Shown here piece after piece: positions 1 to 43,970 of a stretch of 64,000 nucleotides of DNA. Position 1 is the first letter of the stretch, and the number at the start of each line of letters is the position of its first letter. A model generated the notes under the pieces. That model made no database searches, had not been told where the DNA came from, and saw nothing but the letters and a program-made list of their open reading frames with translations. The translations under genes and the position numbers were made by a program. Where the stretch lies: contig JAEUII010000313.1 of NCBI GenBank assembly GCA_016795145.1, positions 1 through 64,000 on the forward strand. Direction: 5' to 3'. Source of the DNA: Planctomycetaceae bacterium (GTDB lineage Bacteria > Planctomycetota > Planctomycetia > Planctomycetales > Planctomycetaceae).

Positions 1-362
1 CCTCAATTCTGGATGTTCGAAGCGTCCAGGGAGCAACCGCCATCCTGCGTTACGCTCAGCAAATCAACGGAGGCAGACCAGAAGGCCGTTTGATTCTGAA
101 TCGAATGCGTCCTCGTGAGACGATCAGTCGCGAAGTCAAAGCAGCTGCCGACACCCTTGGATTGACGGTCGCCCTGCATTCGATCCGTGATCTCCAGGCG
201 TTTCGCGATGCCGCTCAGCAGGGAACGACCGTTGGACGACTCGGACCACGTGCGAAACAGGCTGCGACCGACACTCACCTGATGATGCACGGACTACTCG
301 ACAGTTCTGTAGCCGCGATCAAACATCAACGACTAGAGCAAAGGAGAGCCAGCAATGACTGA
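1..362 (+). CDS. ParA-family partition ATPase, C-terminal part (5' end outside window)
   Basis: The frame is open from base 3 to the stop at 360-362, about 119 residues, and continues left of the window. The visible part has a beta strand ending in LILNRMRP, then a helix with TISREVKAA, and a segment on choice of target (VALHSIRDLQAFRDA), as in the C-terminal half of ParA/MinD-type ATPases of plasmids. The Walker A region is not in view, so the ATPase call rests on the C-terminal pattern and context. Such proteins segregate plasmids or integrated elements with a small DNA-binding partner. The next gene overlaps by 8 nt and is the likely partner. Confidence 0.6.
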   Translation, partial: SILDVRSVQGATAILRYAQQINGGRPEGRLILNRMRPRETISREVKAAADTLGLTVALHSIRDLQAFRDAAQQGTTVGRLGPRAKQAATDTHLMMHGLLDSSVAAIKHQRLEQRRASND

Positions 363-2789: not shown

Positions 2790-3419
2790 TCAGGGTTCGT
2801 CTACTGTGAACCAGCCCCTCGATCTCATTCTTGCCTGAACCACTTCCTTGAACTGTTGAATCCACAACTGACATGCTCGCAGGGATGGCTTCTGATCGTC
2901 CGGCATTTGACTGCGAACATCTGCGGCAGAATCACTGGTAGCAACGAAAATACTGAGATAGATTCGCTTCACTTCATTGTCGATTTCTTCAAGCAGTTCG
3001 TTAACGATGGCCGCCATTTCGCGAATCTTCTCTTCTCGCTTGCGCTGGCCCAGTGTGCCGCCAGAAACTGCATCGTCTTCCCGTATGGGAAAGCGTTTCC
3101 CTTTTGGATTGTGGGGATCCCTCGTTTCTCGGGCAATGGCATCACTGACACGTCGAGCCACCACGACCGTAAGGTAGCCACGAAGACTTTTGCTGGAGTC
3201 GAATGAGGCTTTACCGTCTATCAGTGCCTCAGCGAGATTGCGGGCAACGTCGTTTGCTACCTCAGTCTTGGAAACTCGAGTTGCCATTTCTTCCGAAAGC
3301 CGGTCTTCCACCTTCTTCCTGATTTCCTCAAAGAACATGTTTACGAGCCGTGTGATCGCCTCCGGATTCTCGGTCACCTGAGCCAGCAGATCTGTCGCGC
3401 TGGTTTTACGCTTTGCCAT
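2790..3419 (-). CDS. ECF-like sigma factor, planctomycete type
   Basis: This 209-residue protein is preceded by GGAGG 6 nt from the ATG. Its layout fits a sigma-70 ECF protein: a helical N-terminus with a sigma2-like segment (SLRGYLTVVVARRVSDAIARE, about residues 84-104), a charged linker and a C-terminal helical segment with SLRACQLWIQQFKEVV as a possible recognition helix. In planctomycetes many such ECF factors are encoded next to Ser/Thr kinases and are thought to be activated by phosphorylation. This matches the kinase 52 nt downstream. Similarity to characterised ECF groups is weak by eye, so a different helical transcription factor is possible. Confidence 0.65.
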   Translation of the reverse strand: MAKRKTSATDLLAQVTENPEAITRLVNMFFEEIRKKVEDRLSEEMATRVSKTEVANDVARNLAEALIDGKASFDSSKSLRGYLTVVVARRVSDAIARETRDPHNPKGKRFPIREDDAVSGGTLGQRKREEKIREMAAIVNELLEEIDNEVKRIYLSIFVATSDSAADVRSQMPDDQKPSLRACQLWIQQFKEVVQARMRSRGWFTVDEP

Positions 3420-3546
3420 TTGCGTCCTCCGTGAGATTCAAACAGGAATTCCGAAAACTGCGCAATTATCGTTGCGCGGTTCGGACAAATCCACTGATTA
3501 GTTTCATGAAGCATGTCACTTCATGTCACATCAAACGGAGCAGAAC

Positions 3547-4560
3547 ATGAGCAAGTCGCGTCAATCAAAGTCGGGAGCAGCGGAGAACGACGGATTGAGC
3601 AACCTTCCAGCGAGCGAGGCGAACTCTCCCATTCTGCTTCGTACGACTTATCCGAAGGGCTGCGATGACCCGATCAGCCGCATGCTCTACGACGAATTTG
3701 TTCTGCATCATACAAGATTCTGTGAAGCCCTGCGTGCCACGGTTTCAAGTGCAATCGCAGCCGGGGGCGCTCTGCATAGCCTGAAAGCTCGCACGGACCA
3801 GGGCAGCTTTGGGCATATCAGGGACCATGTGGCAAAAGAGTTCGGCATCTCAGAACGCACGGCTCAGAGATACATGCTCCTGTACCGGAATCGGCAGCGA
3901 CTGGCAGAGATTCTGCGCGAGCAATGCGCACCACAGGCCGAGGGCTTGTCAGACGAAAAGCTTTTGGAACAGATCACTCTGAATCAGGCGATGCGATTGC
4001 TGGCTGCTCCCGACAGCACAGACAGCACCAATGAGAAGTCATCGGCCACGAGAAGATCTGCGTGGCAGAACTGTCGAGTTCCCATCGCCGTTTGCGGATG
4101 TGTGCAGTCATGTTGGGATCATGGTTCCTGGTTCCTTTCAGAAGCAGACGAATCGAACACTCTCAACTTTGACAACTTCGTCGTCGGTCGCGGTGTGCTT
4201 CGCGACTCGTATGAACTCGCTGGCCGCGTCTTCGTGAATGCCATTCGTCCTGATCTGCCCAAAGCACTGCTTGGCTCTGTGTGCGATGCTTTCGATCGCG
4301 GTGTGATACAGGAAGGCCTGCTGCTGCTGCCCAACAACCACAAGACCACAGGCATCCGAACTCTGGCCAGACGTGGCCGGATCGTTTTTCGAGAGCTGTT
4401 GGTCTCGACAACACCGGTTCCGGACAAAGATATCATTGAGCAGGCTGTCTTCCCGGTTCCCGCCATGATCATTGCGCTTTGCACCGATGAGAGATTCTCG
4501 CTGATCGCCCACACGTTCGAGAGCATCGCAGACGCCTATCTGCCGCTCACGATGGATTAA
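3547..4560 (+). CDS. DUF3102-like plasmid/phage protein
   Basis: The chosen start at 3547 has GGAG 6 nt upstream; an in-frame ATG at 3523 has none. The 337-residue product carries, at about residues 55-120, a segment typical of DUF3102: an Ala-rich helix (VSSAIAAGGALHSLKA), then a stretch ending FGISERTAQRYMLLYRNR, which reads as a helix-turn-helix. Proteins of this kind occur on plasmids and phages, often near partition or replication genes. The C-terminal 150 residues match nothing I know. It lies 80 nt upstream of the tubulin-like gene on the same strand and may be its regulator. Confidence 0.6.
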   Translation: MSKSRQSKSGAAENDGLSNLPASEANSPILLRTTYPKGCDDPISRMLYDEFVLHHTRFCEALRATVSSAIAAGGALHSLKARTDQGSFGHIRDHVAKEFGISERTAQRYMLLYRNRQRLAEILREQCAPQAEGLSDEKLLEQITLNQAMRLLAAPDSTDSTNEKSSATRRSAWQNCRVPIAVCGCVQSCWDHGSWFLSEADESNTLNFDNFVVGRGVLRDSYELAGRVFVNAIRPDLPKALLGSVCDAFDRGVIQEGLLLLPNNHKTTGIRTLARRGRIVFRELLVSTTPVPDKDIIEQAVFPVPAMIIALCTDERFSLIAHTFESIADAYLPLTMD

Positions 4561-4640: not shown

Positions 4641-6776
4641 ATGTCCATTTCGCAGAAGAAACACTCTGCCCATACACTGAAGACAGGCCATCAGGATTCT
4701 CGCACCAGAGGCCCCCGAGAAGCGCGAATTCTGCTGGTGATTGGTGATGGTCGCCGGGGAGTGATCACACGGCGACTGGCACAATGGTATGACCTGATCA
4801 TCGTTTTCGATGTTGCCAGTGAAATTGAGAAGAAGAAGGCGCAGTTTCGGAGCATCCCGAACATTATTTACTTCCCATTGGGTGCAGGAACAACGGCTGC
4901 CACGTTGTTTGAAGAGGCACCAGAGCACCTGCGTCATGCTGTCCAGCAGCTTGCACCATTGAACGCCGACGATGGAATGGGGTCCTTGCCAGGAATTGGT
5001 TGTCGCGCCGTAGAAATGGCGATCAACTCACCTGAGTTCAGCAAGCTCGCGGAATATGTCGCCGATCGGATCCTCATCGACACCAACGGCGCTCCCACTC
5101 GGGTAGGAGGACGAACTGTTTTCAGTGATTCCGGAGGCACGGGGTCAGGTGACCCAACCGAGCTGACGCGAGCATTGATTCGCAAACTCTGTGTCCTGCA
5201 GGTCCCGATTGACTGGGACTATGAGCCGGTTGGCTCGATCACATTTGCCGGCTTAGCCACCCGAGCCCATCTCAATGCAGCGTCGTCACAGTGGCGATTG
5301 CTCCGAAAGCTCATTCGAACTCCTTTGACCGACTGCCCGCTGGTCGTGGAATCCTGTCGACTGATGGAGTTGCTGCCGTTTGTAAACGATCAGGCTTCCC
5401 GCGATCGCATGGTGGCACTGGATGAACAGTCGTGGACGGCACGCAGACTTCAGGATTATCTGACATTGATCAAGCCGAACTCCGCCATGAATGGCAAGTA
5501 CGGCCTCACCAATGCTTGGCAGCTCGATCGCAGCGAACAACTCGACCCTCGAACGGAAATCGTTCCAGTTGTGGCTGTTAATCTCCGCCTGACTCTTCTC
5601 GATGGTCTTCTGCAGGCAGAACCTCAGCCTGCACGGGTTACGAGCCTCGAGGTCGACCCTTCAGCGGTAGAACTGCCACGTGAGTCGGTTGAATTTCTCC
5701 TCGAACAGGATCTCGATCCAGCGGACCTGATTGAGGAAATCTGCAAGCCGGGCACACATCACGAGTTCCGGCTGACGGCAATCATTGACGCGGATCAGGA
5801 GTTCAGTCTGGAGAGGCTCGAGTTCGATTTCCAGAACTCACCCCGTTCGCTGACCGAATTCACGAATTCCGTCCAGATCCTCGGTTCGATTGAGATCGTG
5901 CTTTCACAGAGGATCGCCGAATGCCATGAACTCTGCATGTCGCTCGAGTCCGAGAAAAAGGACCTCAGTGCAGTTGTGGCGGATCTCAATGAAGATCTGC
6001 GTTCCGGTCGCTGGCTTCTGTTTCCTTCGCGAAGGAAGCGAACCGTATCTTTGCATGAGACTGCCGAAGACCTTCGAGCCGTTGCCGATGACCTGAGGTT
6101 TCAGCAAATGCTGACGGCATCGCTGGATGCCGCCAGAAGTCGAGTCGTAAAGGAACTCACTTTCCTCGTCGATTCTCTGAAGAAGGTCGCGTCTATTCTT
6201 CAGGAGTGGTGTCCTCGCGGAACTCGTCGGGTCAACGACGAAGCGCCAATCCTTGTGCGTTCTTCGGACGATGCTTTTGCGGATCTGTGGACATTGCCGC
6301 ACCTGTCGCCGCAGGAACAGATTGATGTCCTGTCTCAACAGACGGCCGCCGTGACGCTTTCGGGTATGGCAAGGCTCGTGGGAACTGAGGAAGCCCGCCA
6401 GGAACGTATTGCCCAGTGTATTGCGGAAGATTGCTTCATCGTTCAGGGGCCGCCACTTGGGTCTAAGGTCATGTTTCGCGAGTCTCAGGAAGTCATTGTT
6501 TTGCCTCCCCTGCCAGCGGAATATCGAGAAACACTGCCCCCACTCATCAGCGAACTACGTCCCGAGACAATCGTTGTCGTTGCCGACACGGCTTCGGCGG
6601 GCGTCACTGTTGTTCGCTATACGTTCTTCACGGCAGACACGCTTGCCGACCTCTTTCCCGGTCGCCTGCGTGCCGACCTTCTCCGTGCATATCAGCATCC
6701 CCAGCGTGCACTGTTCTTCCCGGAAGGGACCGACGGCCTGGAGGATGACCTGCGTGACTTCGGCATGATCAAATAA
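4641..6776 (+). CDS. divergent tubulin/FtsZ-like protein (FtsZl/Tubulin_2 type)
   Basis: This is a 711-residue protein. Residues 30-60 form a Rossmann-like strand-loop-helix (ILLVIGDGRRG, then LIIVFDV). At 161-171 it has FSDSGGTGSGD, the form of the tubulin/FtsZ nucleotide signature (GGTGSG at 165-170), followed by a helix. Between them are a loop around residues 83-120 and a helix, and after them strands such as SITFAGLATRA, as expected of a tubulin core of about 300 residues. Residues from about 430 to 560 are helical, probably coiled coil, and the last 100 form an alpha/beta domain. The gene is followed 11 nt later by a membrane VWA protein, a pairing described for the FtsZl-1 family of predicted membrane-remodelling systems (Makarova and Koonin). 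GTP binding and polymerisation are inferred, not shown. Confidence 0.55.
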   Translation: MSISQKKHSAHTLKTGHQDSRTRGPREARILLVIGDGRRGVITRRLAQWYDLIIVFDVASEIEKKKAQFRSIPNIIYFPLGAGTTAATLFEEAPEHLRHAVQQLAPLNADDGMGSLPGIGCRAVEMAINSPEFSKLAEYVADRILIDTNGAPTRVGGRTVFSDSGGTGSGDPTELTRALIRKLCVLQVPIDWDYEPVGSITFAGLATRAHLNAASSQWRLLRKLIRTPLTDCPLVVESCRLMELLPFVNDQASRDRMVALDEQSWTARRLQDYLTLIKPNSAMNGKYGLTNAWQLDRSEQLDPRTEIVPVVAVNLRLTLLDGLLQAEPQPARVTSLEVDPSAVELPRESVEFLLEQDLDPADLIEEICKPGTHHEFRLTAIIDADQEFSLERLEFDFQNSPRSLTEFTNSVQILGSIEIVLSQRIAECHELCMSLESEKKDLSAVVADLNEDLRSGRWLLFPSRRKRTVSLHETAEDLRAVADDLRFQQMLTASLDAARSRVVKELTFLVDSLKKVASILQEWCPRGTRRVNDEAPILVRSSDDAFADLWTLPHLSPQEQIDVLSQQTAAVTLSGMARLVGTEEARQERIAQCIAEDCFIVQGPPLGSKVMFRESQEVIVLPPLPAEYRETLPPLISELRPETIVVVADTASAGVTVVRYTFFTADTLADLFPGRLRADLLRAYQHPQRALFFPEGTDGLEDDLRDFGMIK

Positions 6777-6787
6777 CGAAAAGGAAC

Positions 6788-8143
6788 ATGAAAATGTACT
6801 ACCTCATTCGAACATTCATCGGTTGGATTCCCGTCGTTCCAGCGTGGTGGCTGCTAAGTGCCCGCTCATTGAATGTCCTCGCACTAACACTCTTTGCCGT
6901 GGCGTTCCTGTCGATGTTCATTCGGCCAGCCGCCTCCGTCAGTCCTGCGAGTCGAAGGCCCGTCAGGAATCGCATTCCCAAAAGAGCAAACAGCACCAGC
7001 AATGTTGCGGCCGGACTGGTCAGCGGCCTTCTGGCATGTCTGTTATTGCTATTCGTTGTTGGGTTTCAGACATACATCCCTCGATTGACCCAATGGTGGA
7101 ATCGCGAGCGGGTGGAGGCGGAGAGGCAGGCAGTGGCGTCGCATGTCGATTCACTGGTGGAGAGTTCCGCTGCAATATGGAGCGACCCATTGACCGCCGC
7201 GAGCTTTCTTGACCGCGGCAAGAGGCTGAATGATAGCTTCCTTCTCGAACACAAGGCCTTGCTTGAGCAGTCCTCGAAATGGCGGGGACCGCGAATCCTG
7301 TCGTCCGACACCGTTGTTTCTATTGTGAAGCAGTCGTCACAGACGCCGATCTGGTCTGCTGACCTTGCGGTCACAGACAATCGTGGTCAGTCAATCACCG
7401 GACTCTCCAGGACAGACTTTCGCCTACTCACTCACAATCGAAATGTGAAGCCGTTTGTTCTCGAAGAACTGAATACACCCAGATCGCAGCTTCATCTGGC
7501 GATTGCCATCGACTGTTCGGCATCAACGACCGGCGAACCACACGCGCAGGCCGTCGAGGGAGTTTGCCGAATGGCCAAAAGCCTTAATGGTAAAGCCCGG
7601 ATGCGTCTGTATTCATTCGCCAAAACCGCCATCGCTGAGTGCGACTGGACACTCGATGGCCGAGACATCGAGACTGCAGCAAGGAGGCTGCTTCCCGATG
7701 GGAACACGGCACTCTTTAACGTCCTGGATGTTGCCAGCATGGATCTGGCAAAGCAGACTGGAGAACGTGCCATTGTTGTGTTCTCAGATGGCAAAGACTC
7801 GATCGGCGGAACAGAGCCGAACTCGACAATCGCCAGATGTCGCGAGCAGGATATTCGAGTCCATGCAGTTGCTCTCCAGACGCCAGAGTTGCAGGTTGAT
7901 CAATTGCGGCAGTTCACATCCGCGACACACGGTCAGTTATTGCTGATCACGGATCCGAAGCTCCTTATTGACGGATTTGAGAAGGTGATTGCTGAGTTGA
8001 CACGACCGCTCTACCGCATCACGACGCTTCAACAAAACGTTGAGGATGCTGTCGCACGAATTGATGTAGGGTCTAACCCGATCTCCGTTCAGATCCGACG
8101 TCCCGAAGCGACTGCGACGCACACTGGTCCGAGCACAGAATGA
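6788..8143 (+). CDS. membrane-anchored von Willebrand factor A domain protein
   Basis: The 451-residue protein starts 11 nt after the tubulin-like gene, with AAAGGA before the ATG. Two hydrophobic stretches near residues 8-45 and 75-97 anchor it in the membrane. A VWA domain follows at about 235-415 with a complete metal-ion-dependent adhesion site: DCSAS (the DxSxS motif), a Thr in GNTALFN and an Asp in VVFSDGKDS. Between anchor and VWA is a segment with ADLAVTDNRGQSITGLSRTD, typical of VWA proteins that bind partners. Tight coupling suggests that it recruits or anchors the tubulin-like protein at the membrane; the ligand is unknown. Confidence 0.85.
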   Translation: MKMYYLIRTFIGWIPVVPAWWLLSARSLNVLALTLFAVAFLSMFIRPAASVSPASRRPVRNRIPKRANSTSNVAAGLVSGLLACLLLLFVVGFQTYIPRLTQWWNRERVEAERQAVASHVDSLVESSAAIWSDPLTAASFLDRGKRLNDSFLLEHKALLEQSSKWRGPRILSSDTVVSIVKQSSQTPIWSADLAVTDNRGQSITGLSRTDFRLLTHNRNVKPFVLEELNTPRSQLHLAIAIDCSASTTGEPHAQAVEGVCRMAKSLNGKARMRLYSFAKTAIAECDWTLDGRDIETAARRLLPDGNTALFNVLDVASMDLAKQTGERAIVVFSDGKDSIGGTEPNSTIARCREQDIRVHAVALQTPELQVDQLRQFTSATHGQLLLITDPKLLIDGFEKVIAELTRPLYRITTLQQNVEDAVARIDVGSNPISVQIRRPEATATHTGPSTE

Positions 8144-8237: not shown

Positions 8238-8636
8238 ATGAATGACACGACAGAACCTAATCCCAGACCCTTCAACGGCTGGGCGAACTACGAAACCTGG
8301 GCGACTGCCCTGTGGCTGGATAATGAACGAAGCGGGTACGAGCAATGCCGACGGGAGGCGGCAGAGTGCTGGAAACTGGCAGAGTCACCACTGGCTTCGG
8401 TTGGTTTTGAGTGCTCGCAACTTGAAGCCGCCCAAATCCTGCTGGCCGGTCGACTGGCAGATTCCATTGATCATCACAATCCGATCGAAGCTCCCTGCCT
8501 CTTTGCAGACTTGCTGAATGCGGCTTTGGGGGAAGTGAATTGGCTTGAGATTGCTCAGCACTATCTCGCCGAACTCATGGAAGCAGGAAAAGAAGAGCCT
8601 GGAAGAGGAGGCCGGCGACATGGAAGTCATCTTTGA
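8238..8636 (+). CDS. DUF7249-like small protein
   Basis: This 132-residue protein has the motif GWANYETWATALWLDNE at about residues 14-30, as in the small proteins of phages and plasmids grouped as DUF7249 (NYETW..ALW). The rest is helical and acidic. AAAGGA lies upstream of the ATG. It overlaps the next gene by 17 nt. The family has no known biochemical activity. Its presence fits an extrachromosomal or integrative element. Confidence 0.65.
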   Translation: MNDTTEPNPRPFNGWANYETWATALWLDNERSGYEQCRREAAECWKLAESPLASVGFECSQLEAAQILLAGRLADSIDHHNPIEAPCLFADLLNAALGEVNWLEIAQHYLAELMEAGKEEPGRGGRRHGSHL

Positions 8637-8982
8637 ATACTCACGGGCACAAGCGATCGCGGATGGAGTCCTGATCGATGTGTCATGGATGGCAAATGAG
8701 GCGGGTTTCCGCTTCCCGGTGGCTCTGACATCTGCCGTCTGGGGCTTGTGTGTAGAAGTCCCGGAGAATGTCGGACATCAAGACGGTAATGGCAGGCTCT
8801 GGGACCTTCTCACCGTTCTTCGTCACAGCATTCGGCAAGCGAACAATCGTCACGAAATTCACTTTGACCTGAGTGTGCGGAACTGTGCTCAAAGAGCCAA
8901 CTCCGTGGCACTGAAGGCAGCCTGCGGACCGGGCGATGACCTCGAGCCGGTCATCACAGTCATGCTACATGATGAAGATTGA
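8620..8982 (+). CDS. DUF6573-like small protein
   Basis: I chose the ATG at 8620 because GGAAGAGGAG lies 9 nt upstream and the protein then begins with the family pattern MEVIFEYSRAQAIADG. The text continues LIDVSWMANEAGFRFPVALT, the conserved start of DUF6573, a family found on plasmids and integrative elements of unknown role. It is 120 residues long. A longer frame from 8545 exists but lies inside the previous gene. It is probably co-transcribed with the DUF7249-like gene. Confidence 0.7.
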   Translation: MEVIFEYSRAQAIADGVLIDVSWMANEAGFRFPVALTSAVWGLCVEVPENVGHQDGNGRLWDLLTVLRHSIRQANNRHEIHFDLSVRNCAQRANSVALKAACGPGDDLEPVITVMLHDED

Positions 8983-9178: not shown

Positions 9179-9508
9179 ATGAAAAAGCGAACGGAAGTTG
9201 TTTCGTTTCGGGCCACATCAGAACTGCTACAGCAGATCGATAGCAGTCGGCGGCATCCAGAAGAATCGCGTGGCGACTGGGTGAAGAACATCATCCAGGC
9301 ACATCTGCATTCGCAGGATCAGCAACTGTTGCTGGATCAGTTTCTCATGCTCGATGACGCTGTCCAGAAGCTCCAGGCGAGTCTGGAGGAACTGCGTCGC
9401 ATGCATTTGAAATCCACCTATCTGCTGCTGGTCACCAATGGAATCAGCCCTGAGTCCGCCAGAGAACGCGTTCGTGCACTTGCGCAGGAAGAGAGGACTG
9501 AGCCATGA
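9179..9508 (+). CDS. ribbon-helix-helix relaxosome accessory protein
   Basis: This 109-residue protein begins with KRTEVVSFRATSELLQQID, a beta strand then helix typical of ribbon-helix-helix DNA-binding proteins, and continues with a coiled-coil helix (about 50-85). It overlaps the start of the relaxase by 4 nt (ATGA). Accessory proteins of this type bind the origin of transfer and load the relaxase; they also repress their own operon. The repeats ending 8 nt upstream are its likely site. Confidence 0.7.
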   Translation: MKKRTEVVSFRATSELLQQIDSSRRHPEESRGDWVKNIIQAHLHSQDQQLLLDQFLMLDDAVQKLQASLEELRRMHLKSTYLLLVTNGISPESARERVRALAQEERTEP

Positions 9509-12156
9509 CAGCCAAGTGTCAGGTGCTGGGAATTGGGTTCGACGGCAGTTACTACGAGTCTTCCGTCAACCTGAACTACTGGGAAGAAGGTGGCACTGCC
9601 CCAGGTCAGTGGTTTGGTTCGGGGGCTCGCGAACTGGGACTACAAGGGATTGTGCGATCGCAGACATTGGCTTCAGTGCTTGCTGGCCGACATCCCGGTT
9701 CGGCGAAGCCTCTGTTGAGATCGATGAACAGCGAGAGCGCAAAGAATCACGGTCGTTTGGAATCTGTTGACGGTACTCACATCAGTCACCGACCTGGTTT
9801 TGACCTTCAGTTCGCCGTCCCGAAAAGCGTGTCAGCATTCTGGGCAGTGGCTCCGCCAGACGTCAAACACACGGTGCAGGACTGCGTCGATCGCGCTGTC
9901 CGTGCATCCCTATCCAGTCTTGAATCCAGAGTACCTCTCGCGAGGCGCATTGAAGGTGGGACGGTACTCCGGGAGAAAGCAAAACTGGTCGTCTCCATGT
10001 ATGACCACGTTACCAGTCGTACCGGGGACCCACACCTTCACCGTCATTGTGTGATCGCCAATGTTTGCCGACGCGACGATGGCGAGTGGCGCACGATTGA
10101 TTCTCGAAGCCTTCATCAGTGGACACGAACTATAGGCCCGTTGTTCCGTGCAAACCTGGCGCATGAACTTCGCTCCCGACTGGGGCTTTCACTCGAACCT
10201 GGCCGCGATCAGACAGGGAAGTGTCGCGAGTGGTTTGAGATTGAGGGAATACCGAAAGCCCTGCTGGGAGACTGGTCTACACGCCGAGAGAGTATCCTGA
10301 ACTTACTCAGTTCGACTCAGCGTAGAATCGCCAAAGCAAGAGAATTTGCTGCTCTGAAGACTCGACCTGACAAGGCTGAACTTGTCCCTCGAAAAGAGTT
10401 GTTCGACGGCTGGCAGAAACAGGCCGCAGGCCACGGACTAAACGCAGACGTGGCACGCTCGCTGTGCAACGCTCCCCAGCAACAAGCGCAGGTGCGAGGG
10501 GAACTGTTTCAGTCGGCATGGAAGTCGGCTTTGAATGACCTCACTTTGTCGAAGGCATGGTTTACAGAACGTGCTCTGATTCAAGCGGTGGCCGAACGGC
10601 TGCAGACCGGCTTTTACTCAGGACAGGATATCGAACGTCGAATTCAAGAGCGAATGAATCTCAGCAGCGAACTCATCCCGCTTCGCTCTGTCAACGGCGA
10701 TCGCAATTTCACGACCCGAGACATGTGGACCCTTGAGCAACAGTTTCTGAAATCGACTGAAGTGCTCCGGTCCCGGCCGGGAGCGCAGGTCTCGAAACGA
10801 AACGTGGAACAGACTCTCTCACGAAATCCTCAACTGGATGATGAACAAAGGTCTGCCGTCAGAACCCTCCTTACTCAGGACAGTGCCATTCGAGTTCTCA
10901 CTGGTGTTGCAGGCTCGGGAAAAAGCACAACGATTGGTGCCGTTCGGGACGGATTCGAACAACAGGGCTTTCGGGTTTTCGGAGGGGCACTTTCTGGCAT
11001 TGCGAAAGAAGAGCTGGTTGCCAAAACAGGGATCAAAGCGCGGACCGTCGCCAGTTACCTTTACCATCTGGACCGATCTACCGGGCAAAAAGTGTGGGAT
11101 CGACTGTCTCATGACGTCAGACAACTGACTCGAGCTGCATTCGGGCTTTCGACCAGTCGCTATCAGAAGGTGGGACTGGATGCTAAATCGGTCCTGATTC
11201 TTGACGAAGCCGGCATGCTTGGGACACGCAGTCTGCAACGAATTCTGCTACTGGCTGAAAAGGCGGGCGCAACGGTCATCCTTACGGGCGACACACGGCA
11301 ATTGCAGCCGATTGAAGCCGGCGGCCCGCTGCGTCGACTCGTTTCCGAATTGTCGACAGCGCACCTGTCTGTTAACCGGCGGCAACAGGACCCAAAGGAT
11401 CAGGAGGCAGTGCAGCAACTTCGCGATGGTAAAGTTGAAGAGGCAATTCGGAACTACGCTGAGCGGGGGCGGATCAAACTGAGTTCGGACCGCCACGGGG
11501 CCATACTCGACCTGGTTCGCACGTGGGAACAACAGGGCGGATATCGAACTCCATCGAAGCATGCAATTCTCACTCAGACCAGGGCGGAAGCGGCAACCGT
11601 TAACCGCGAATGTCAGACTGTTCGTCTTCAGAAATCTCTCATACCGCCAGTCCTTCGATTGACCCACGAAGGAGTGTCGTATTACCGCGGCGACCGGGTT
11701 CTCTTTCATCGCGCTGCCCGTGGGCATGGGATCGAGAATGGCCACAAGGGCACGGTGCTGTCTGTCAATCCCGTGCTTCGTACATTGAAAGTTCGTTTGG
11801 ATCGACCGGTACAAGGTGATTCCTCGCGAAGTGCAAGAGATGCCATTGTGACTGTTTCCGTGAAGGAATTCCGAAACTCCGGGATCTCGCTCGGCTATGC
11901 GTTTACGACACATAAGGGTCAAGGCACAACAGTGGAGCATGCATATGTGCTGGCTGGAGGCTTTCAGACCGACCGTGAGATGCTCTATGTCCAGGCCACA
12001 CGAGCACGCTGGTCCACACATTTCTTCCTGAGTCGCGACGACGCTGGTCCCAATTTGACAGCTTTTGTCGATTCTGTTCGACAGTCTCGAGCCAGTCAGC
12101 TCGCACATGATCTCGGTGAGCGACACACACGGCAATCACCACAACCGGAACGCTGA
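9505..12156 (+). CDS. MobF-family relaxase-helicase (TrwC/TraI type)
   Basis: This 883-residue protein has an N-terminal relaxase with Tyr pair YYESS at residues 16-17 and LNYW..PGQWFGSGA near 25-40, a region found in TrwC relaxases. The metal triad is H177-x-H179-x-H181 within DPHLHRHC. The second half is a superfamily 1 helicase: Walker A GVAGSGKST at 467-475, DEAG at 567-570 and, near the end, SLGYAFTTHKGQGTTVEHA, as in RecD-like helicases. It nicks oriT, stays bound to the 5' end and unwinds the transferred strand. All key residues are present, so it appears functional. Confidence 0.93.
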   Translation: MTAKCQVLGIGFDGSYYESSVNLNYWEEGGTAPGQWFGSGARELGLQGIVRSQTLASVLAGRHPGSAKPLLRSMNSESAKNHGRLESVDGTHISHRPGFDLQFAVPKSVSAFWAVAPPDVKHTVQDCVDRAVRASLSSLESRVPLARRIEGGTVLREKAKLVVSMYDHVTSRTGDPHLHRHCVIANVCRRDDGEWRTIDSRSLHQWTRTIGPLFRANLAHELRSRLGLSLEPGRDQTGKCREWFEIEGIPKALLGDWSTRRESILNLLSSTQRRIAKAREFAALKTRPDKAELVPRKELFDGWQKQAAGHGLNADVARSLCNAPQQQAQVRGELFQSAWKSALNDLTLSKAWFTERALIQAVAERLQTGFYSGQDIERRIQERMNLSSELIPLRSVNGDRNFTTRDMWTLEQQFLKSTEVLRSRPGAQVSKRNVEQTLSRNPQLDDEQRSAVRTLLTQDSAIRVLTGVAGSGKSTTIGAVRDGFEQQGFRVFGGALSGIAKEELVAKTGIKARTVASYLYHLDRSTGQKVWDRLSHDVRQLTRAAFGLSTSRYQKVGLDAKSVLILDEAGMLGTRSLQRILLLAEKAGATVILTGDTRQLQPIEAGGPLRRLVSELSTAHLSVNRRQQDPKDQEAVQQLRDGKVEEAIRNYAERGRIKLSSDRHGAILDLVRTWEQQGGYRTPSKHAILTQTRAEAATVNRECQTVRLQKSLIPPVLRLTHEGVSYYRGDRVLFHRAARGHGIENGHKGTVLSVNPVLRTLKVRLDRPVQGDSSRSARDAIVTVSVKEFRNSGISLGYAFTTHKGQGTTVEHAYVLAGGFQTDREMLYVQATRARWSTHFFLSRDDAGPNLTAFVDSVRQSRASQLAHDLGERHTRQSPQPER

Positions 12157-12165
12157 GGAATTCAA

Positions 12166-12618
12166 ATGACTCTTCGCGAACCACAACGCCGCACGTTGCG
12201 CGGGAACCAAAGCAGGCCACCCAAACGTCGTCAGTTTTCTGAACGGGCGGCGGATTTCTACGAATGGGCAGTCGGCATCATCGAGACTCTATTGAACGTT
12301 GGGATGGTGCTGTTTCTGGGATTCATGGTGAAGTGCTTTTTGCCATTCCTTGTCATCCTGGTAGTTGCCGTCCCGACAGTCATTTTGTTCTCACCCGTCA
12401 TCGTCGCCGTGCTCGCATATCAGGCAGGCCTCTGGGAAACGGTTCTGTACATCGTTTCGGTTGGTCTGGTGCTACTCGTTGGGTATGCCGCATCTGCTTC
12501 CGAGAAGCGGAACTACGTCTCACGAGGTCGCAAGCTGACCAGTGCGGAGGACGCTCGTAGCCGGACAAGTCCACCGGGCGCTCACCGCGGACTGCGGCAG
12601 CCGAAGCGCCGACCGTAA
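12166..12618 (+). CDS. small multi-pass membrane protein beside the coupling ATPase
   Basis: This 150-residue protein has a basic N-terminus of about 30 residues, then three hydrophobic stretches (about 42-62, 64-84 and 88-106) and a hydrophilic basic tail. It sits 9 nt after the relaxase and 66 nt before the soluble T4CP-like ATPase. I do not recognise a family. Because that ATPase lacks its own membrane helices, this protein could serve as its anchor; that is an inference from order only. Confidence 0.6.
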   Translation: MTLREPQRRTLRGNQSRPPKRRQFSERAADFYEWAVGIIETLLNVGMVLFLGFMVKCFLPFLVILVVAVPTVILFSPVIVAVLAYQAGLWETVLYIVSVGLVLLVGYAASASEKRNYVSRGRKLTSAEDARSRTSPPGAHRGLRQPKRRP

Positions 12619-12684: not shown

Positions 12685-14121
12685 ATGACTCGAAGCAACC
12701 AATTCATGCAGTTCGGTGCACTGCAGTTACCACCGTCTGCAGCCACCAGTCACGTCCTCTTTTCCGGTACGACGGGAAGCGGAAAAACGACTTTGCTGCG
12801 ACTTCTGCAGGAAAGTCAGTTCACGGAAATTCGACCGGGGAACGACTGGCGTGCCATTGTTAACGACCCGAAACAGGACGTTCTTCCATTCCTTCAGTCG
12901 ATCGCCCCTGAAGCGACGATTGTGATCACTCACCCGTTTGATCAGCGCTGTTCGGCGTGGGACATGTCTGCCGATATCGACAGTCCGCAGCTCGCCGTCG
13001 AGTTCTGTTACACGCTGATCCCGCCAACGAGCGAGCCGCAACAGTTCTTCAACGATGCCTCTCGACACTGTATTTACGGTGTCATCATCAGCTTTCAGCT
13101 GAGTGGAATCTCATGGACATTTGCTGACTTGATTCGGGTGCTTTCTTCTCCCCGGATTCTCCGACATGTCCTGAAACGGCATTGGGAGACGGCACCGATT
13201 TCATCTTATTACCTCTCGGAAAAACGCTTGCGCGCAAATGTTCTGGCCACAATTGCATCGAAGCTGCTGCCCTTTGGGCCCATTGCAGCCTGCTGGGATC
13301 GCGCAACATCAAAATTCTCTCTGTCACAGTGGGCGGTATCTCCGATGATCCTGGTACTTGGCAGCTCTGACATCAGCCGGACTCCGGTTCAGACCCTGAA
13401 TCGGTGTATTTTCAAACGCGCGGCCGACATCACCCTGGAACAACCAGATTCAGAAACGCGAAGAACGTGGTTTGGGATCGATGAACTCTCCGATGCGGGG
13501 AAACTTGATGGCATCGTCGCACTCGCCAAGAAGGGTCGTTCCAAAGGAGCGTGCCTTTCCGTGGCATTTCAGTCCATCGCTGGTCTTCGGGATCCGTCTC
13601 TCTACGGTCCGCATCTGACGGAAGAATTCCTCGCTCAGTTCGGTCACAAGTTTGTGGGGCGTATGGAATGTGCCTCATCTGCAGAATGGGCTTCCGCGCT
13701 GGTCGGCGACCAGGAAGTCAATCAAAAGTCATACAGCTACACGACTGGGCAACATCCAACATCGACAACGACAATTCAGAAGGTGACTCGTCGAGGAGTT
13801 CTGCCAAGTCAGATCCTGGACTTTCCTCCCTGCAACCTTGAGAACGGACTGACAGGCTTATTCTTCGCGCCGTCCGTCGGAGTTTTCGTAGATTCAATCG
13901 ACGGACACGAACTCTTTGTTGATGGAGCTCCAGTCCCAGCCAGTATTCCTGCGTTCCTGCCGTGCCCGAAAGGTCATCAGTTTCTACAACCGTGGACGCC
14001 AGAACAGGCTGACGCCCTTCAGATTCCGACAGAGCTTTTGGCAACCCCCGGCAAGCCATCCGCGAACTCCAGAGCGAAGACGACTGCGAAGCCTCTCTCC
14101 TTTGACGATCTGTTCGCGTAA
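12685..14121 (+). CDS. T4CP-like (VirD4/TraD-type) DNA-transfer ATPase without membrane helices
   Basis: This 478-residue protein has a Walker A box GTTGSGKTT at 28-36 and a Walker B-like FGIDELSDAG followed by VALAKKGRSKGACLSVAFQS, the form seen in type IV coupling proteins (TraD/TraG/VirD4) and related DNA-binding ATPases. There are no N-terminal transmembrane segments, unlike most T4CPs. GGGAGG lies upstream of the ATG. It probably moves the relaxase-bound strand to a secretion channel; no mating-pair genes are visible in the window, so the element may use another's or carry them further left. Confidence 0.8.
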   Translation: MTRSNQFMQFGALQLPPSAATSHVLFSGTTGSGKTTLLRLLQESQFTEIRPGNDWRAIVNDPKQDVLPFLQSIAPEATIVITHPFDQRCSAWDMSADIDSPQLAVEFCYTLIPPTSEPQQFFNDASRHCIYGVIISFQLSGISWTFADLIRVLSSPRILRHVLKRHWETAPISSYYLSEKRLRANVLATIASKLLPFGPIAACWDRATSKFSLSQWAVSPMILVLGSSDISRTPVQTLNRCIFKRAADITLEQPDSETRRTWFGIDELSDAGKLDGIVALAKKGRSKGACLSVAFQSIAGLRDPSLYGPHLTEEFLAQFGHKFVGRMECASSAEWASALVGDQEVNQKSYSYTTGQHPTSTTTIQKVTRRGVLPSQILDFPPCNLENGLTGLFFAPSVGVFVDSIDGHELFVDGAPVPASIPAFLPCPKGHQFLQPWTPEQADALQIPTELLATPGKPSANSRAKTTAKPLSFDDLFA

Positions 14122-14251: not shown

Positions 14252-14515
14252 ATGCCTCGCAATGATCATCCTCCGAACGCCGAACGACTCAATTCGAGCA
14301 TGAACCGCCTGATCGACCGGCGAGAGGCCTCCCAACTTGCAGCGGTCAGTGTTGCGACATGGGATCGCATGAATGCAGGGGGGAAGACCCCTGAGCCAAT
14401 TCATTTGTCCAAAGGCTGTGTTCGCTGGCGCTTTGACGACGTGCAATTGTGGATCCAACACGGATGTCCGGACCGAAAGCAGTTTGAGCATCTCAAATCC
14501 AACGAGAACCACTGA
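14252..14515 (+). CDS. excisionase/AlpA-like helix-turn-helix protein
   Basis: This 87-residue protein has a MerR/AlpA-type helix-turn-helix at about residues 18-62: LIDRREASQLAAVSVATWDR, then a turn and a wing ending RWRFDDVQLWIQ. The WRFDDVQLW ending is typical of excisionases and AlpA-type regulators. It lies 59 nt before the integrase gene, the usual place for xis. It probably directs excision and may repress int. Confidence 0.75.
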   Translation: MPRNDHPPNAERLNSSMNRLIDRREASQLAAVSVATWDRMNAGGKTPEPIHLSKGCVRWRFDDVQLWIQHGCPDRKQFEHLKSNENH

Positions 14516-14574: not shown

Positions 14575-16104
14575 ATGGCACGCATGTTTCAGCCTCGTAT
14601 CACACGATACCTTGATCCTGACGGTCACCGCTGCACCAAAGACACGCCCGGCGCTCGCAAAGTGACGGAACGCTCCAAAACGTGGCGCGGTGAGTATCGC
14701 GATCACTCCGGTATACTTCGGACAGTAACTCTCAGTTCGAACAAGCAGGCATCTCGCCAACTGCTGGCTGAACTGGAACGCAAAGCCGCCCATCAGAAAT
14801 CCGGACTGCTGTCGCCGTTCGAAGAGCATGGGATTCGACCGCTGCTTGAACATCTGGAAGATTTTCGACAGTCTCTCGAAGATGCCGGCAACACTGCCGC
14901 TCATTGCAAACTCGTCTTTGTTCGAGCAAAGACGGTCATTGAGAACTCAGGGTTCCGTTACATCCGCGATATCTCGTCCAGCAAAGTTCAGAAGTGCCTC
15001 GCTAATCTGCGAAAGGTTGAGAAGCGTTCACAACAGACCATCAACCACTATCTGAGGGCCATCAAACAGTTCACTCGCTGGCTGGTTCGCGACCGACGGA
15101 CAGAAGAGGATCGATTGACGTTTTTGGAAGGTGGCAATGTCCGGGTGGATCGTCGTCTCGAACGACGCGAATTGTCAGATGTTGAGATTCAGTGGCTTCT
15201 GCAAGAGACTCTCTCATCCCAGCCGATTGCCCTGCTCACCGGATTCCAACGGTATACGCTCTACGCTACGGCGCTGTCGACCGGGCTTCGAGCATCGGAA
15301 CTGGCTAGTCTGACGCCCACACATTTCAAGCTCGATGCCGAAGTGCCGGTCGTCCAAATTGCGGCCGAGAATGAAAAGGCGAGGAGAGGGGACATTATCC
15401 CGTTGCCACAGAGTCTGGTGCAGATTCTCCGACCCTGGTTTTCCGAACTGTCCAGGAACGCACTGTTGTGGCCGGGAAAATGGGCCTCCCAGAAGCGAGC
15501 CGGCAAGACACTTCAGAAAGATCTCGAAGCAGCTCGATCGGCATGGATTGCGGAAGCGAAGTCGGAGGAGATCCGACTTGACCGAGAAAAGTCTCCGTTC
15601 CTTCAGTTTCGGACGGAAGCGGGACAGGCAGACTTTCATTCCCTTCGACACACGTACCTGTCTCGGCTTGGTCGTTCAGGCGTGTCTGCGAAGGCGATGC
15701 AGCAGCTTGCTCGACACTCGACCGTCGAGCTGACGATTGGTCGTTACACCCACACCAACATCCACGATCTCGGCTCTGCGGTGCAGCAATTGTCACCACT
15801 GCCGATTCCTCGATGCACCGGGAAAAACGCGCAACCAAAGCACGACACTGACCATGGTTTGGTTGCACTAATGGTTGCCGGACTTTCCGGCAACCATAGC
15901 GAACCATTGACGACGGCTGAGGACCGACCACCGACGAATGAACCGGTCGAGCCTGAAAACACCGACAGCCGCAACCCCTGTCAACGTAAGACGTTAGACA
16001 AGGATTGCGGCTGTCTGAGTGCAATTGATAAAGCGGAGAGACAGGGATTCGAACCCTGGGTACCCTTGCGGGCACTCCGGTTTTCAAGACCGGTTTCGAT
16101 TTGA
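14575..16104 (+). CDS. tyrosine recombinase/integrase
   Basis: This 509-residue protein has an N-terminal arm-binding region (1-85), a SAM-like core-binding domain (about 85-190) and a catalytic domain (205-400). The catalytic set is complete: R239 in STGLRASEL, H355 and R358 in HSLRH, H381 and the nucleophile Y391 in GRYTH. Residues beyond 400 are a tail rich in Thr/Pro/Asp. The last 25 or so residues are encoded by the 3' half of a tRNA-Ser gene read on the opposite strand. The stop lies about 10 nt past that block, so the protein end would change upon integration. It should integrate the element at tRNA-Ser(UGA). Confidence 0.92.
   Translation: MARMFQPRITRYLDPDGHRCTKDTPGARKVTERSKTWRGEYRDHSGILRTVTLSSNKQASRQLLAELERKAAHQKSGLLSPFEEHGIRPLLEHLEDFRQSLEDAGNTAAHCKLVFVRAKTVIENSGFRYIRDISSSKVQKCLANLRKVEKRSQQTINHYLRAIKQFTRWLVRDRRTEEDRLTFLEGGNVRVDRRLERRELSDVEIQWLLQETLSSQPIALLTGFQRYTLYATALSTGLRASELASLTPTHFKLDAEVPVVQIAAENEKARRGDIIPLPQSLVQILRPWFSELSRNALLWPGKWASQKRAGKTLQKDLEAARSAWIAEAKSEEIRLDREKSPFLQFRTEAGQADFHSLRHTYLSRLGRSGVSAKAMQQLARHSTVELTIGRYTHTNIHDLGSAVQQLSPLPIPRCTGKNAQPKHDTDHGLVALMVAGLSGNHSEPLTTAEDRPPTNEPVEPENTDSRNPCQRKTLDKDCGCLSAIDKAERQGFEPWVPLRALRFSRPVSI
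16034..16092 (-). other. 3' half of tRNA-Ser(UGA), presumed att core
   Basis: On the - strand this block has a 5-bp anticodon stem with loop CTTGAAA (anticodon TGA, Ser), a long variable arm (GCCC-GCAA-GGGT), a T arm CAGGG-TTCGAAT-CCCTG and the 3' acceptor strand TCTCTCC plus G. The 5' half (acceptor, D arm) is missing: the bases at 16093 onward do not match it. It overlaps the end of the integrase gene. This is the att sequence shared with the host tRNA gene, not a working tRNA. Confidence 0.85.
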
Positions 16105-16139
16105 CGCAAGTCTATGTCCGCTAGGGAGTTGCAAAACCA

Positions 16140-16559: not shown

Positions 16560-18116
16560 TCATTCAGCCGCGACGTTAACAAAGCTCTCGATAGGAATTC
16601 CGGTTGCTCCGACAAGTGCAGCGGCCGACTGTGCGAGTTCATTCAGCAGATCAAGCTGGGCACGGCGATTCAGTATGAGGCTGTTACGAGCCTGTACAAC
16701 TCGAACGACATCAATTTCCCCCGCTTCGAACTGTGTTTCGAGGCCCTTCAATTCGCTGGGAAGATCCGTTGCCGGCTGATCCGACCTGATCTCCGACAAT
16801 AACGACAGCGCTTGTGCATACCGTTCCATCGCAGCCGTAGCCTCCAGCTCTGCGCGTCGCTGGATCTGTGTCCATGCGGTGATCCTCTGCTGGTGTTCTG
16901 CAAGACGTTGTCGCTCCAGGGGTTCGCCACTATTCACGACGGGCAAATCCATCTGTGCGCGAAATCCAAAGAACGTCGTACTGTCGGCAGTGGCCTGATA
17001 GTAGGGCCCAATCTGAAGATCCGGCGTTTTCGAAGCCGACGCCAGTCGCAGATTGGCTCTTGCAACATCGACATCAGATCGTGCGGCCATGACGTCGGGC
17101 CGCGACATCGCCCAGCTCACAGTGCTGGCTTTTGACTCAATCACCACCTGGTCCCAGTCTTCCGGGCCAATCTGTGCGAGCTGAATACTTGTATTGGGCA
17201 ATTTCCACTGAAACGATTGAAGGTCGCCAGCAACTTCAGTAAGTCCATCCGGCTCCATTCCGACTTGCCGTGCGAGATCGCGCAGTGAGTTTCTATAATT
17301 TGCATTTGCCAGTTGCCGTTGCTGTCGCGTCGATTCAGTATCAACCCGCACTATCGCCACATCAGCGGCAGTGATGGCGCCAGCGTTCAACTGATTCTCC
17401 AGAATCTGGAGCAATTGTTGATTATTCTTGTGACTGGCCTCAGCGAGCGATTGAATATCGCGCAGGTACAAGGCTGTAAAATAGAGTCGCTGCGTTTGAG
17501 CCAGTGTCTGCAGCTCAGCCTGGTGGATATTCCAACGCGTGCTGTTCAGAGCAAATTTCGCCCCCTGTTCCCGGAAGTCCTGCTGATGCGCGAGCTGGAT
17601 TGTCTGCATGAGAAGCACGTAATGATAGGTTCGATTCGGTCCTCCGTTACCGGCTTCCTGAAAAGGCGTTGCCTGTACCTGCAGAAAAGGATTGAATGGA
17701 TACGTATCAGCGACGCCTTTTGCTGCCAGACTGACTCGCTCTGTCTGCCGAAGTGCGACAAGGTCAGGATTATTCGAAACAGCCTGTTCACAAAGGTGTC
17801 TGAATGAAACCTCGACATCTTGTTCGGACGGGCTTACCGCAAGACCGACTTCATTTTCGCCCATCTTTGTCGGAGCCACGGTCGCTTTCGACCATGCAAC
17901 GGTACTGACTCCGGAATTGCTTTTCCCCGGAGAAGGGTTTGATAGATTCTCCGGTAAGGACTTGGTCGGTGGCTGCACTGCCTGATGTGAGTTGTCTGCC
18001 GCGAATCCGGAAACCGATGTTAAGTTCGATCCATGATCGACAGATCTGCAACCAACGCATATTGCTGACGCAAATAACGATGCGAGGCCAATGAAACTTC
18101 GATGAATTGATGCCAT
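16560..18116 (-). CDS. TolC-family outer-membrane efflux lipoprotein
   Basis: I start at the ATG at 18116, preceded by AAAGG. The 518-residue protein has a lipoprotein signal ending ASAICVGC, a Pro/Ser-rich stretch and then two helical repeats of the outer-membrane factor family (residues about 110-500). It includes the usual pattern of long coiled-coil helices with TQ and NRRAQLDLL. It would form the outer-membrane exit duct of the RND pump encoded upstream. It is the last gene of the operon, 192 nt after the pump gene. Confidence 0.85.
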   Translation of the reverse strand: MASIHRSFIGLASLFASAICVGCRSVDHGSNLTSVSGFAADNSHQAVQPPTKSLPENLSNPSPGKSNSGVSTVAWSKATVAPTKMGENEVGLAVSPSEQDVEVSFRHLCEQAVSNNPDLVALRQTERVSLAAKGVADTYPFNPFLQVQATPFQEAGNGGPNRTYHYVLLMQTIQLAHQQDFREQGAKFALNSTRWNIHQAELQTLAQTQRLYFTALYLRDIQSLAEASHKNNQQLLQILENQLNAGAITAADVAIVRVDTESTRQQRQLANANYRNSLRDLARQVGMEPDGLTEVAGDLQSFQWKLPNTSIQLAQIGPEDWDQVVIESKASTVSWAMSRPDVMAARSDVDVARANLRLASASKTPDLQIGPYYQATADSTTFFGFRAQMDLPVVNSGEPLERQRLAEHQQRITAWTQIQRRAELEATAAMERYAQALSLLSEIRSDQPATDLPSELKGLETQFEAGEIDVVRVVQARNSLILNRRAQLDLLNELAQSAAALVGATGIPIESFVNVAAE

Positions 18117-18308
18117 AGTATGCTTGTCGCCTTTCAACCATGAACTTGCTCATGGTTTGTTCGTCCGGCAAAACAACCTGATGGCAAACTCCTTGATTTC
18201 GTTTATGCAGAGTTAAGCTTGGCACTCAGCGACAGGTGTTCTCAATCGACAATAATTGCCGCTTGCCGTCCGGAGATCCGGCCTGAACCGATTGCGACGG
18301 TTGTTCCG

Positions 18309-21300: not shown

Positions 21301-21413
21301 AAGACATCGAGGGGCATAGACGGAACCAGCCGAAGTCCGACTGCCATCAGAAGAACGGACAGCGCCAGAACGGCAATTCGCATACGGAGCGCCAACTCAA
21401 TCAGCCAACTCAT
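18309..21413 (-). CDS. heavy-metal/multidrug RND efflux pump (CusA/CzcA-like)
   Basis: The 1034-residue inner-membrane pump has the duplicated RND fold: N-terminal helix, periplasmic porter domain with DVFPEFAPP at 36-44 and [17 protein letters not shown] near 53-69, then twelve membrane helices in two sets. Helix 4 holds [13 protein letters not shown] (397-409), with Asp401 and Asp402 in the place of the proton-relay Asp. This helix 4 variant is shared with the second RND pump in the window. Proton influx powers metal or drug export via the adaptor and outer-membrane factor encoded alongside. I cannot name the substrate. The neighbouring sensor is CusS-like, which hints at a metal. Confidence 0.93.
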
Positions 21414-21457
21414 GATCCAAGTACCCTGTGAAACGGAGCCAAACTGTGAATCGGCAA

Positions 21458-22753
21458 TTACTTCGCAAATCCGAATTCAGTTCCTGCCAGTTCCGCAACG
21501 GCCGCAGTGACGATCTCTGTGCCGAGCGGGGGGGAGTGCTTCAACGCCGCCCAACCGTCGGCCACAAACGCCACTTCAACTCGACGCCGAACGAAAGTAC
21601 TCTGCCCCATCCGCTCATAGACCCACTGATTTCCATAAATGTCGAGATATATAGCCGACCAGGGTATGGCAGTTTGTGTCGACTCACCTTTCAGGCGAAT
21701 CTGAACACTCAATCGCTGCCCCGGCCGATACGCAGCGTTCTCGTTGGGGAGTTCGTAATAAACATCCACTGTTGACGCGAGGGCGAAGGCCGTCGGAGGC
21801 ACTGTGATTGGTTTTACGTCGATGACTGTTGACCCCTGAAGTTTTCCCGGAGCTGCAATTCTGGCCTCTGCGGTCAGGTCGAGGCCTTCGAGGTCGCCGA
21901 CATACACAGGTACCCGCACCCAAAAAACCTTGTTGTCCATGATCTCGAACATCGCCGAACCGGCAGCCACAATCTGTCCGGGCTGTGTCTGGATGCTCCT
22001 TACAATTCCCGAAATCGGAGACACGATTGAAATTGGCTTAAGAGTTCCTTCTTCAGCATCCAGCTTGATTCCATCAACAATTTCTTTGCGAGCCTCTGCA
22101 GCCTCGAGGGCAGCCTCTGCCAGCTTGAGCTGTGCAGTTGCTTCATCAACTGCCCGGATTGTGCCAGACTTGTCTTTCAGCAGCCGCTCCGCACGTTCGA
22201 GGGCGATCTGAGCCGCTTCAACCTGCACTTTCGACTGCTCCACCTGAGCAGCCGCATCATTCTGAGATTGTGCGATAGTATTTCTGACTTCCGCAAACCG
22301 AACTCGTTCAGCTGGCGTAAGAACGTCGCGTTCCGGTGACAGAAGCGGGAGCAGCTGCAGTACCTCTGTTCCTTTTTCAATCTGATTACCGGGACCGGGC
22401 AGTATTCTGTTTTCCTGAAGTTTCAACATGCCTGCAACCGGCGCAGAGACCAGAACGGACGCCCCGGTTGGCAAGACAACCTCCGCTCCGTAGGCTCGTA
22501 CTTGCGGCATATTCCGTTCAACAATCGGCTGATGTTCTACTCCGAGTCGCCGGATCGCGTCGTCGGTAAGTTCAATAGTATTCAGATTCACCTCGGACAC
22601 TGCGAAGGATGTCTTCGCCGGTGACACAGGTGCTGTCTTCTTCGTCTCAACGGTCGGCTTCTGACATCCGCAGAGGGGCAGCATCAAGCAACAGGATGCA
22701 ACAGCAGCAAACGACCGCAGTAAGGTGCCATGGCACAATGAATCGTTGTGCAT
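21458..22753 (-). CDS. RND periplasmic adaptor (membrane fusion) lipoprotein
   Basis: The 431-residue protein has a signal ending LPLCGC, a barrel-sandwich half ([18 protein letters not shown]), a long helical hairpin (about 165-230, Ala/Glu/Gln-rich), the returning lipoyl half ([18 protein letters not shown]) and beta-barrel and membrane-proximal domains. This is the order of HlyD/CusB-type adaptors that link pump and outer-membrane duct. Its ATG overlaps the stop of the sensor kinase gene as TAATG, and the pump gene follows after 44 nt. Confidence 0.9.
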
Positions 22754-43968: not shown

Positions 43969-43970
43969 GA

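Follow-up and report, generated by a model that had tools for sequence, protein, structure and literature searches.

Makarova and Koonin described in 2010 the FtsZl1 proteins, in which an FtsZ-like domain occurs with a coiled coil, a von Willebrand factor A (VWA) partner, and kinases, planctomycetes included (PMC2875224). No assigned function was found in the literature for these FtsZl1/VWA operons. Proteins of the related Tubulin_2 type are also encoded by the Borg elements of archaea (PMC9879509), and one survey left Tubulin_2 proteins out of its trees as too divergent (PMC9871819). Here, we analyzed a stretch of 64,000 bp, hereafter the window, which comprises bases 1–64000 of a 67.6-kb contig (G000:C174) from a planctomycete draft genome of 8.1 Mb and carries a putative tubulin-like gene at 4641–6776 followed by a VWA gene at 6788–8143, both on the forward strand. 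The product of the first gene very probably belongs, as a divergent member, to the Tubulin_2/FtsZl1 branch of the FtsZ-tubulin superfamily and, with a DNA-binding adaptor and the VWA protein, forms the core module of a family of integrative mobilizable elements. A reading made earlier from the sequence alone had likened the pair to the FtsZl1/VWA operons, and the link to this FtsZl1/VWA(/kinase) type (PMC2875224) fits in both layout and partners.

The features reported by that sequence-only reading were recovered in our analysis: the tubulin-like open reading frame (ORF) encodes 711 aa with the GGTGSG signature at residues 165–170, and the VWA ORF, encoding 451 aa, starts after a gap of 11 nt. 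The VWA protein matched PF13519 (VWA_2; E 9.5e-10) and PF00092, contains the motif DCSAS (DxSxS) of a complete metal ion-dependent adhesion site (MIDAS) at residues 242–246, and has two hydrophobic stretches near its N-terminus (approximately 22–45 and 73–91). The 711-aa protein, for which GTPase activity is predicted, consists of an N-terminal domain (approximately residues 25–330), a coiled coil (approximately 404–522), and a C-terminal domain (approximately 540–711). Homologues were found in nine sampled planctomycete genomes, including that of the window, and searches with other members of the family returned no match in plasmids, phages, or IMG/VR; direct searches with the window protein likewise gave no match in PHROGs, PADLOC, plasmids, or IMG/VR. 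A profile search of PDB sequences returned only coiled coils, aligned to the coiled-coil stretch, and chance matches, and one class-search match, in G731, was rejected as a homologue, being short, restricted to the coiled-coil region, and surrounded by unrelated genes. The alignment with the homologue of genome G138 covers the full length (E 1e-26), and this homologue, which lies in the same gene neighborhood as the window gene, scored above the Pfam cut-off for Tubulin_2 (PF13809; 28.9 vs 27 bits). Most family members fall below this threshold, for example the G013 homologue with 20.5 bits.

The relationship was examined further by comparing a profile of the N-terminal domain, built from seven members, with a profile of 27 planctomycete Tubulin_2 proteins using hhalign. 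The comparison gave a P value of 3.2e-6, a probability of 88%, and a score of 51.2 over 164 columns starting at the T4 loop, while the C-terminal half gave a P value of 0.13; as controls, 60 profiles with shuffled columns did not exceed a score of 19.5, nor five other element families 18.8, and reversed profiles reached 26–28. Earlier runs with few Tubulin_2 members had given weaker scores, and the larger set was needed. Several FtsZ-like features could be placed by eye in the expected order, namely a putative S1/T1 (IGDGRRG), S2 (IIVFD), a T3-like GMGSLPGIGxxA, and T4 (GGTGSG), followed at the place of T5/H6 by TFAGLATRxxxNAA. With respect to the T4 signature GGGTG(S/T)G, the window protein has SGGTGSG at residues 164–170, a serine replacing the first glycine, and the loop is altered in other members (GAGGTFSG, TGGAGFHGG, SAAGGTYSG).

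A number of results weigh against this assignment. On its own, the window protein had no match in Pfam, NCBIfam, or PDB sequences, and the acidic catalytic site of T7 could not be placed; a conserved PN followed by D/N-G lies after the putative H7, where model confidence is low. The full-length AlphaFold2 model based on four sequences was poor (pLDDT 52.5, pTM 0.33), although it contained two helices at 404–454 and 461–522 with pLDDT up to 89, as in a long coiled coil, and then a further domain. Because this model was too poor for a fold search, we instead modeled the N-terminal domain from G013, obtaining a pTM of 0.57 and strands and helices in tubulin order. With this model, Foldseek alone ranked Rossmann enzymes of the short-chain dehydrogenase/reductase (SDR) type first (E about 1e-4, low TM-scores), with tubulins next. 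When the same candidates were aligned with VIA-align, the top 29 rows were all tubulin, FtsZ, CetZ, or TubZ (Z 12.5–10.6), with E. coli FtsZ at Z 12.2 over 159 residues (21% identity). That the fold is instead that of a Rossmann enzyme or another nucleotide-binding domain with a convergent GGTGSG loop is highly improbable: SDR enzymes do fill the first rows in Foldseek, and glycine-rich loops slightly lift hhalign scores even in reversed profiles, but a homologue matches Pfam Tubulin_2, the hhalign alignment extends well beyond the loop alone, and the tubulin/FtsZ rows outrank the best Rossmann row in VIA-align (12.5 vs 10.5). The sequence and the predicted fold agree, the margin on the fold alone being modest, and the earlier tubulin interpretation was borne out at the family level: a homologue matches Pfam, and the controlled profile–profile comparison and a moderate structure model point the same way.

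Directly upstream of the tubulin-like gene, the ORF at 3523–4560 (forward strand) encodes the putative DNA-binding adaptor, which combines a DUF3102-type helix-turn-helix (HTH) domain (PF11300, E 0.009) with a Dam-like methyltransferase remnant. Homologues in the same slot match PF11300 and PF05869 (Dam). The catalytic NPPY motif of the Dam-like part is HPPH or lost and is intact only in G622, where the DUF3102-type HTH protein and the NPPY-intact methyltransferase are separate genes (L105:14828–16053); elsewhere they form one fused gene whose enzymatic half has degenerated. The slot is filled in G138 by a ParB-like protein. Since the position is always taken by a DUF3102/Dam-like or ParB-like gene, all visible loci (8/8) have a DNA-binding gene ahead of the tubulin-like gene, and a VWA gene with MIDAS lies downstream of the latter equally in 8/8. 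The site is retained in all VWA partners in the alignment. The VWA domain is probably periplasmic, as a basic loop precedes the last transmembrane segment and the positive-inside rule would place the C-terminal VWA domain outside. Relative to the close relative G512, the dN/dS ratios were 0.20 for the tubulin-like gene, 0.21 for the VWA gene, and 0.21 for the adaptor gene, which indicates that all three are under purifying selection. Given that homologues occur in eight other genomes, that the pair is retained at 20–28% identity among them, and that dN/dS is close to 0.20, the association of the two genes is, judging from these comparisons, more than chance co-occurrence.

The gene-order comparison, which reaches only as far as the contigs extend, yielded the consensus ParA/ParB-like, (kinase, ECF-like), adaptor, tubulin-like, VWA, (DUF7249, DUF6573), small DNA-binding protein, TrwC, TrwB, and integrase, where ECF denotes the extracytoplasmic function sigma factors. 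In the window, the partition, relaxase, and integrase genes previously noticed near the pair are a ParA fragment, a ParB-like gene, TrwC, TrwB, and a tyrosine integrase, and the survey of homologues that had been suggested as a check revealed VWA genes and mobility genes beside them as far as the contigs allow. A MOBF relaxase and a coupling protein were encoded on the same contig as the tubulin-like gene in 7/7 cases, and an RPA/TrfA-like replication gene is also present in the elements of G512, G086, G138, and G680; a search of the window assembly did not find a rep homologue of the window element. The integration genes differ, with a tyrosine integrase at tRNA-Ser in the window and G512 and one near tRNA-Arg in G138, and a large serine recombinase in G086, and the cargo differs as well, G086 carrying a separate DUF4011 helicase block. 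Because the gene order is kept while integration genes and cargo vary, the tubulin/VWA module is, on comparative grounds, part of the element core and not cargo.

The relaxases of the module-bearing elements form a single clade (support 99/99), and eight other planctomycete MOBF relaxases fall outside it, their loci lacking the module as far as visible. The tubulin-like and VWA proteins have diverged in parallel with the relaxase and coupling protein (exact Mantel tests, 78/5040, 154/5040, 3/5040, and 5/5040), with the former two evolving faster than the relaxase (approximately 18–30% vs 38–49% identity between most elements). The window and G512 elements are 85–93% alike and their hosts belong to different genera, whereas tubulin-like proteins within the window's own genus are only 25–28% alike, as expected for horizontal movement. 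No clear att repeat was found in G086 or G138, and the left end of the window element is off the contig. The same relaxase clade also includes L074 (G016:C327), in which the relaxase is split over two frames and the contig starts at the DUF7249 gene.

The elements combine a relaxase and an integrase without a type IV secretion system (T4SS) of their own, the composition of an integrative mobilizable element; Guglielmini et al. (PMC3158045) class an element whose relaxase is not accompanied by VirB4 as mobilizable, relying on a borrowed T4SS. PF03135 (VirB4), PF19044 (TraG P-loop), and PF03743 (VirB10/TrbI) were absent from 7/7 host genomes tested, and control genomes gave matches. No T4SS that the element might borrow was therefore seen in its hosts, within the limits that metagenome-assembled genomes are incomplete and that unknown types of T4SS could escape detection. 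MOBF relaxases with coupling proteins occur in planctomycetes even though VirB4 was found in only 4/382 genomes of the phylum, all from one distant family.

The adaptor, tubulin-like, and VWA proteins thus probably constitute a closely spaced, co-evolving DNA-to-membrane module at the core of a planctomycete integrative mobilizable element, serving its transfer or positioning. Regarding function, we tentatively propose, somewhat short of an even chance, a coupling device that would tether and drive the element DNA at the cell envelope. In this proposal, the adaptor would bind element DNA, and the tubulin-like protein would bind GTP and assemble on the adaptor–DNA complex in the cytoplasm. The resulting polymer or complex would dock on the VWA protein at its cytoplasmic end; the VWA protein would in turn carry the link across the inner membrane and, through the metal site of its periplasmic VWA domain, bind an envelope partner. 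Element DNA held and driven at the envelope in this way would most likely support transfer by the relaxase and coupling protein and possibly positioning too. Transfer is the most likely purpose, positioning comes second, and an envelope or conflict function third, the last two being about equal; for the explanation as a whole, identity and function together, we put the chances slightly below even. Several observations count against the functional proposal: no iterons or clear cis sites were found beside the adaptor gene in the four elements examined, ParA/ParB already serve partition, the kinase/ECF pair is absent from some elements and hence not universal, and other planctomycete MOBF elements, which do not carry the module, are likewise hosted by a family in which VirB4 was not detected.

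A role in positioning or partition, that is, type III-like (TubZRC-like) segregation with a membrane anchor that acts beside ParA/ParB in an excised, replicating element, appears rather unlikely. The DNA-binding gene directly upstream of the tubulin-like gene in all eight visible loci, ParB-like in G138, would suit such a role, as would the nearby rep and ParA genes, which imply a replicating phase; nevertheless, a ParA/ParB-like pair is already present, no tubC-like iterons were found, the adaptor is not a TubR relative by Pfam, and TubZRC systems are without a VWA membrane protein. We regard as comparably unlikely an envelope or conflict function benefiting the element, such as host membrane remodeling, entry exclusion, or defense of the type described by Kaur et al. 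in 2020, under kinase/ECF regulation. Sets of tubulin, VWA, and kinase genes do occur in predicted membrane-remodeling and conflict loci (PMC2875224, PMC7159879), and the faster evolution of the FtsZ-like and VWA proteins compared to the relaxase, together with the apparent exchange of the ECF gene between near-identical elements, points in the same direction. On the other hand, the module is fixed between the par and mob genes and does not lie among variable cargo, as the separate helicase block of G086 does; moreover, neither a TRAFAC GTPase nor any established effector domain was found in the elements, and PADLOC gave only generic kinases and weak coiled-coil-type matches. The boldest form of the transfer proposal, in which the relaxase and a soluble coupling protein would hand DNA to the tubulin-like GTPase and a periplasmic VWA complex, jointly acting as a mating channel or its motor, in planctomycetes mostly without a T4SS, seems improbable. 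Since the family hosting the module-less MOBF elements also had no VirB4, whatever moves those elements does so without the module, and given such elements under the same lack, the module is only a candidate stand-in for a T4SS.

The remaining genes of the window element are as follows. As the contig starts within the ParA gene, the element lacks its left end and only the C-terminal part of ParA is encoded (3–362, forward strand); the ParA counterpart in G512 (L017:15433–16215) extends beyond that point, and positions 1–2925 of the window share 90% nucleotide identity with the G512 element. The next gene (355–807, forward) encodes a small protein without a Pfam match that is presumed, from its position and size, to be the ParB-like partner, and its counterparts adjoin ParA in G512, G086, and G622 with 44–93% identity. 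On the reverse strand lie a serine/threonine protein kinase (887–2737; PF00069, E 2e-41), with counterparts in G512 and G086 and none found in the elements of G138, G622, and G680, and an ECF-sigma-like protein (2790–3419) with weak, sub-cut-off matches to PF07638 (E 0.004) and TIGR02937 (4e-5). The latter is only 56% identical to L017:12367–13002 with a dS of 1.07, in contrast to 84–93% and a dS of 0.24–0.59 for the other core genes, and looks as if it had been exchanged singly between the window and G512 elements.

Downstream of the VWA gene, all on the forward strand, are genes encoding a DUF7249 protein (8238–8636; PF23907, E 2.9e-7), which takes the same slot in G512, G086, G575, and G016, a DUF6573 protein (8620–8982; PF20213, E 6e-26), and a small pre-relaxase protein (9179–9508), conserved in position across elements and, from its sequence, probably a ribbon-helix-helix DNA-binding protein. 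They are followed by the TrwC-type (MOBF) relaxase-helicase (9505–12156; PF08751, E 2e-75; PF13604, E 7e-53), a small hydrophobic, putative membrane protein (12166–12618) that is conserved in G512 and has a similar small counterpart at the matching position in G680, and the TrwB-type coupling protein (12685–14121; PF10412, E 6e-46). The TrwB-type protein starts immediately before the Walker A motif, without the usual N-terminal membrane segment, and the gene ahead of it is that of the small membrane protein; the two possibly represent a split coupling protein. A small HTH protein (14252–14515), with relatives in the same slot of G512, G138, and G575, is excisionase-like by position and precedes the tyrosine integrase (14575–16104; TIGR02225, E 8e-15). 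The integrase ORF enters the tRNA-Ser on the opposite strand (15950–16119), and its last residues therefore derive from the attachment site; this tRNA-Ser(tga) gene, predicted by ARAGORN at 16033–16119 on the reverse strand, is the probable attachment site and right end of the element. The G512 element adjoins a tRNA-Ser(cga), and similarity stops at the tRNA. Scans for promoters and terminators gave signals no better than shuffles. Just outside the element, an efflux-type operon at 16560–24887 comprises, as judged from sequence, an outer membrane factor, a resistance-nodulation-division (RND) pump, an adaptor, a sensor kinase, and a response regulator. Further on, a prophage-like region of higher GC content (0.58–0.60) at approximately 26000–47000 includes a 979-aa protein with long Thr/Ser repeats (28408–31347), a tape measure protein (32201–34195), a head protease (40545–42608), a portal protein (42514–44181), and a phage-type ATPase (44595–47090).

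When compared to known systems, a partial search of the literature found no tubulin/VWA module on a mobilizable element. As in TubZRC type III partition, a DNA-binding protein and a tubulin-like GTPase are encoded together on a mobile replicon; in contrast, the adaptor is DUF3102-HTH/Dam-like or ParB-like and not TubR, iterons were not found in four elements, a VWA membrane partner is present, and ParA/ParB-like genes occur as well. The elements resemble MOBF integrative mobilizable elements in their TrwC relaxase, TrwB coupling protein, integrase at a tRNA gene, and lack of an own T4SS, and differ from other such elements in having no detected host T4SS, a fixed tubulin/VWA module, and plasmid-like rep and par genes. 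They also raise the question of how planctomycete elements with MOBF relaxases and coupling proteins move, VirB4 being almost absent. The GAP1-N2/tubulin/VWA conflict systems (Kaur et al. 2020, PMC7159879) likewise combine tubulin-like and membrane VWA genes, whereas no TRAFAC GTPase or FNIII component was found in the elements scanned and the genes here belong to a mobile element core. The module is a candidate for a new mechanism by which mobile elements are anchored, moved, or transferred in hosts without a recognizable conjugation channel, and if our proposal is true, a tubulin relative that acts together with a membrane protein on mobile DNA would join TubZ and PhuZ among the tubulins that serve replicons.

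The closest likeness is to FtsZl1/Tubulin_2 (PMC2875224), with an N-terminal FtsZ-like domain, a coiled coil, and a C-terminal domain, an adjoining membrane VWA gene with intact MIDAS, and a serine/threonine kinase in the window locus. In contrast, the window protein is shorter (711 aa vs mostly 900–1300 aa for planctomycete Tubulin_2 open frames), the family sits in a mobile element core with a relaxase and with a DNA-binding gene directly upstream, and the P-loop GTPase and OmpA partners, frequent though non-defining in the 2010 set, were not found among the element ORFs scanned. The hosts of the window and G512 elements each encode a separate Tubulin_2 protein of approximately 1090 aa elsewhere in the genome. 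The occurrence of a short FtsZl1 version in the fixed core of a mobile element makes a function readable in terms of transfer, inheritance, or exclusion of that element, and the family described here represents a shortened and divergent offshoot of the FtsZl1 kind in a new gene setting.

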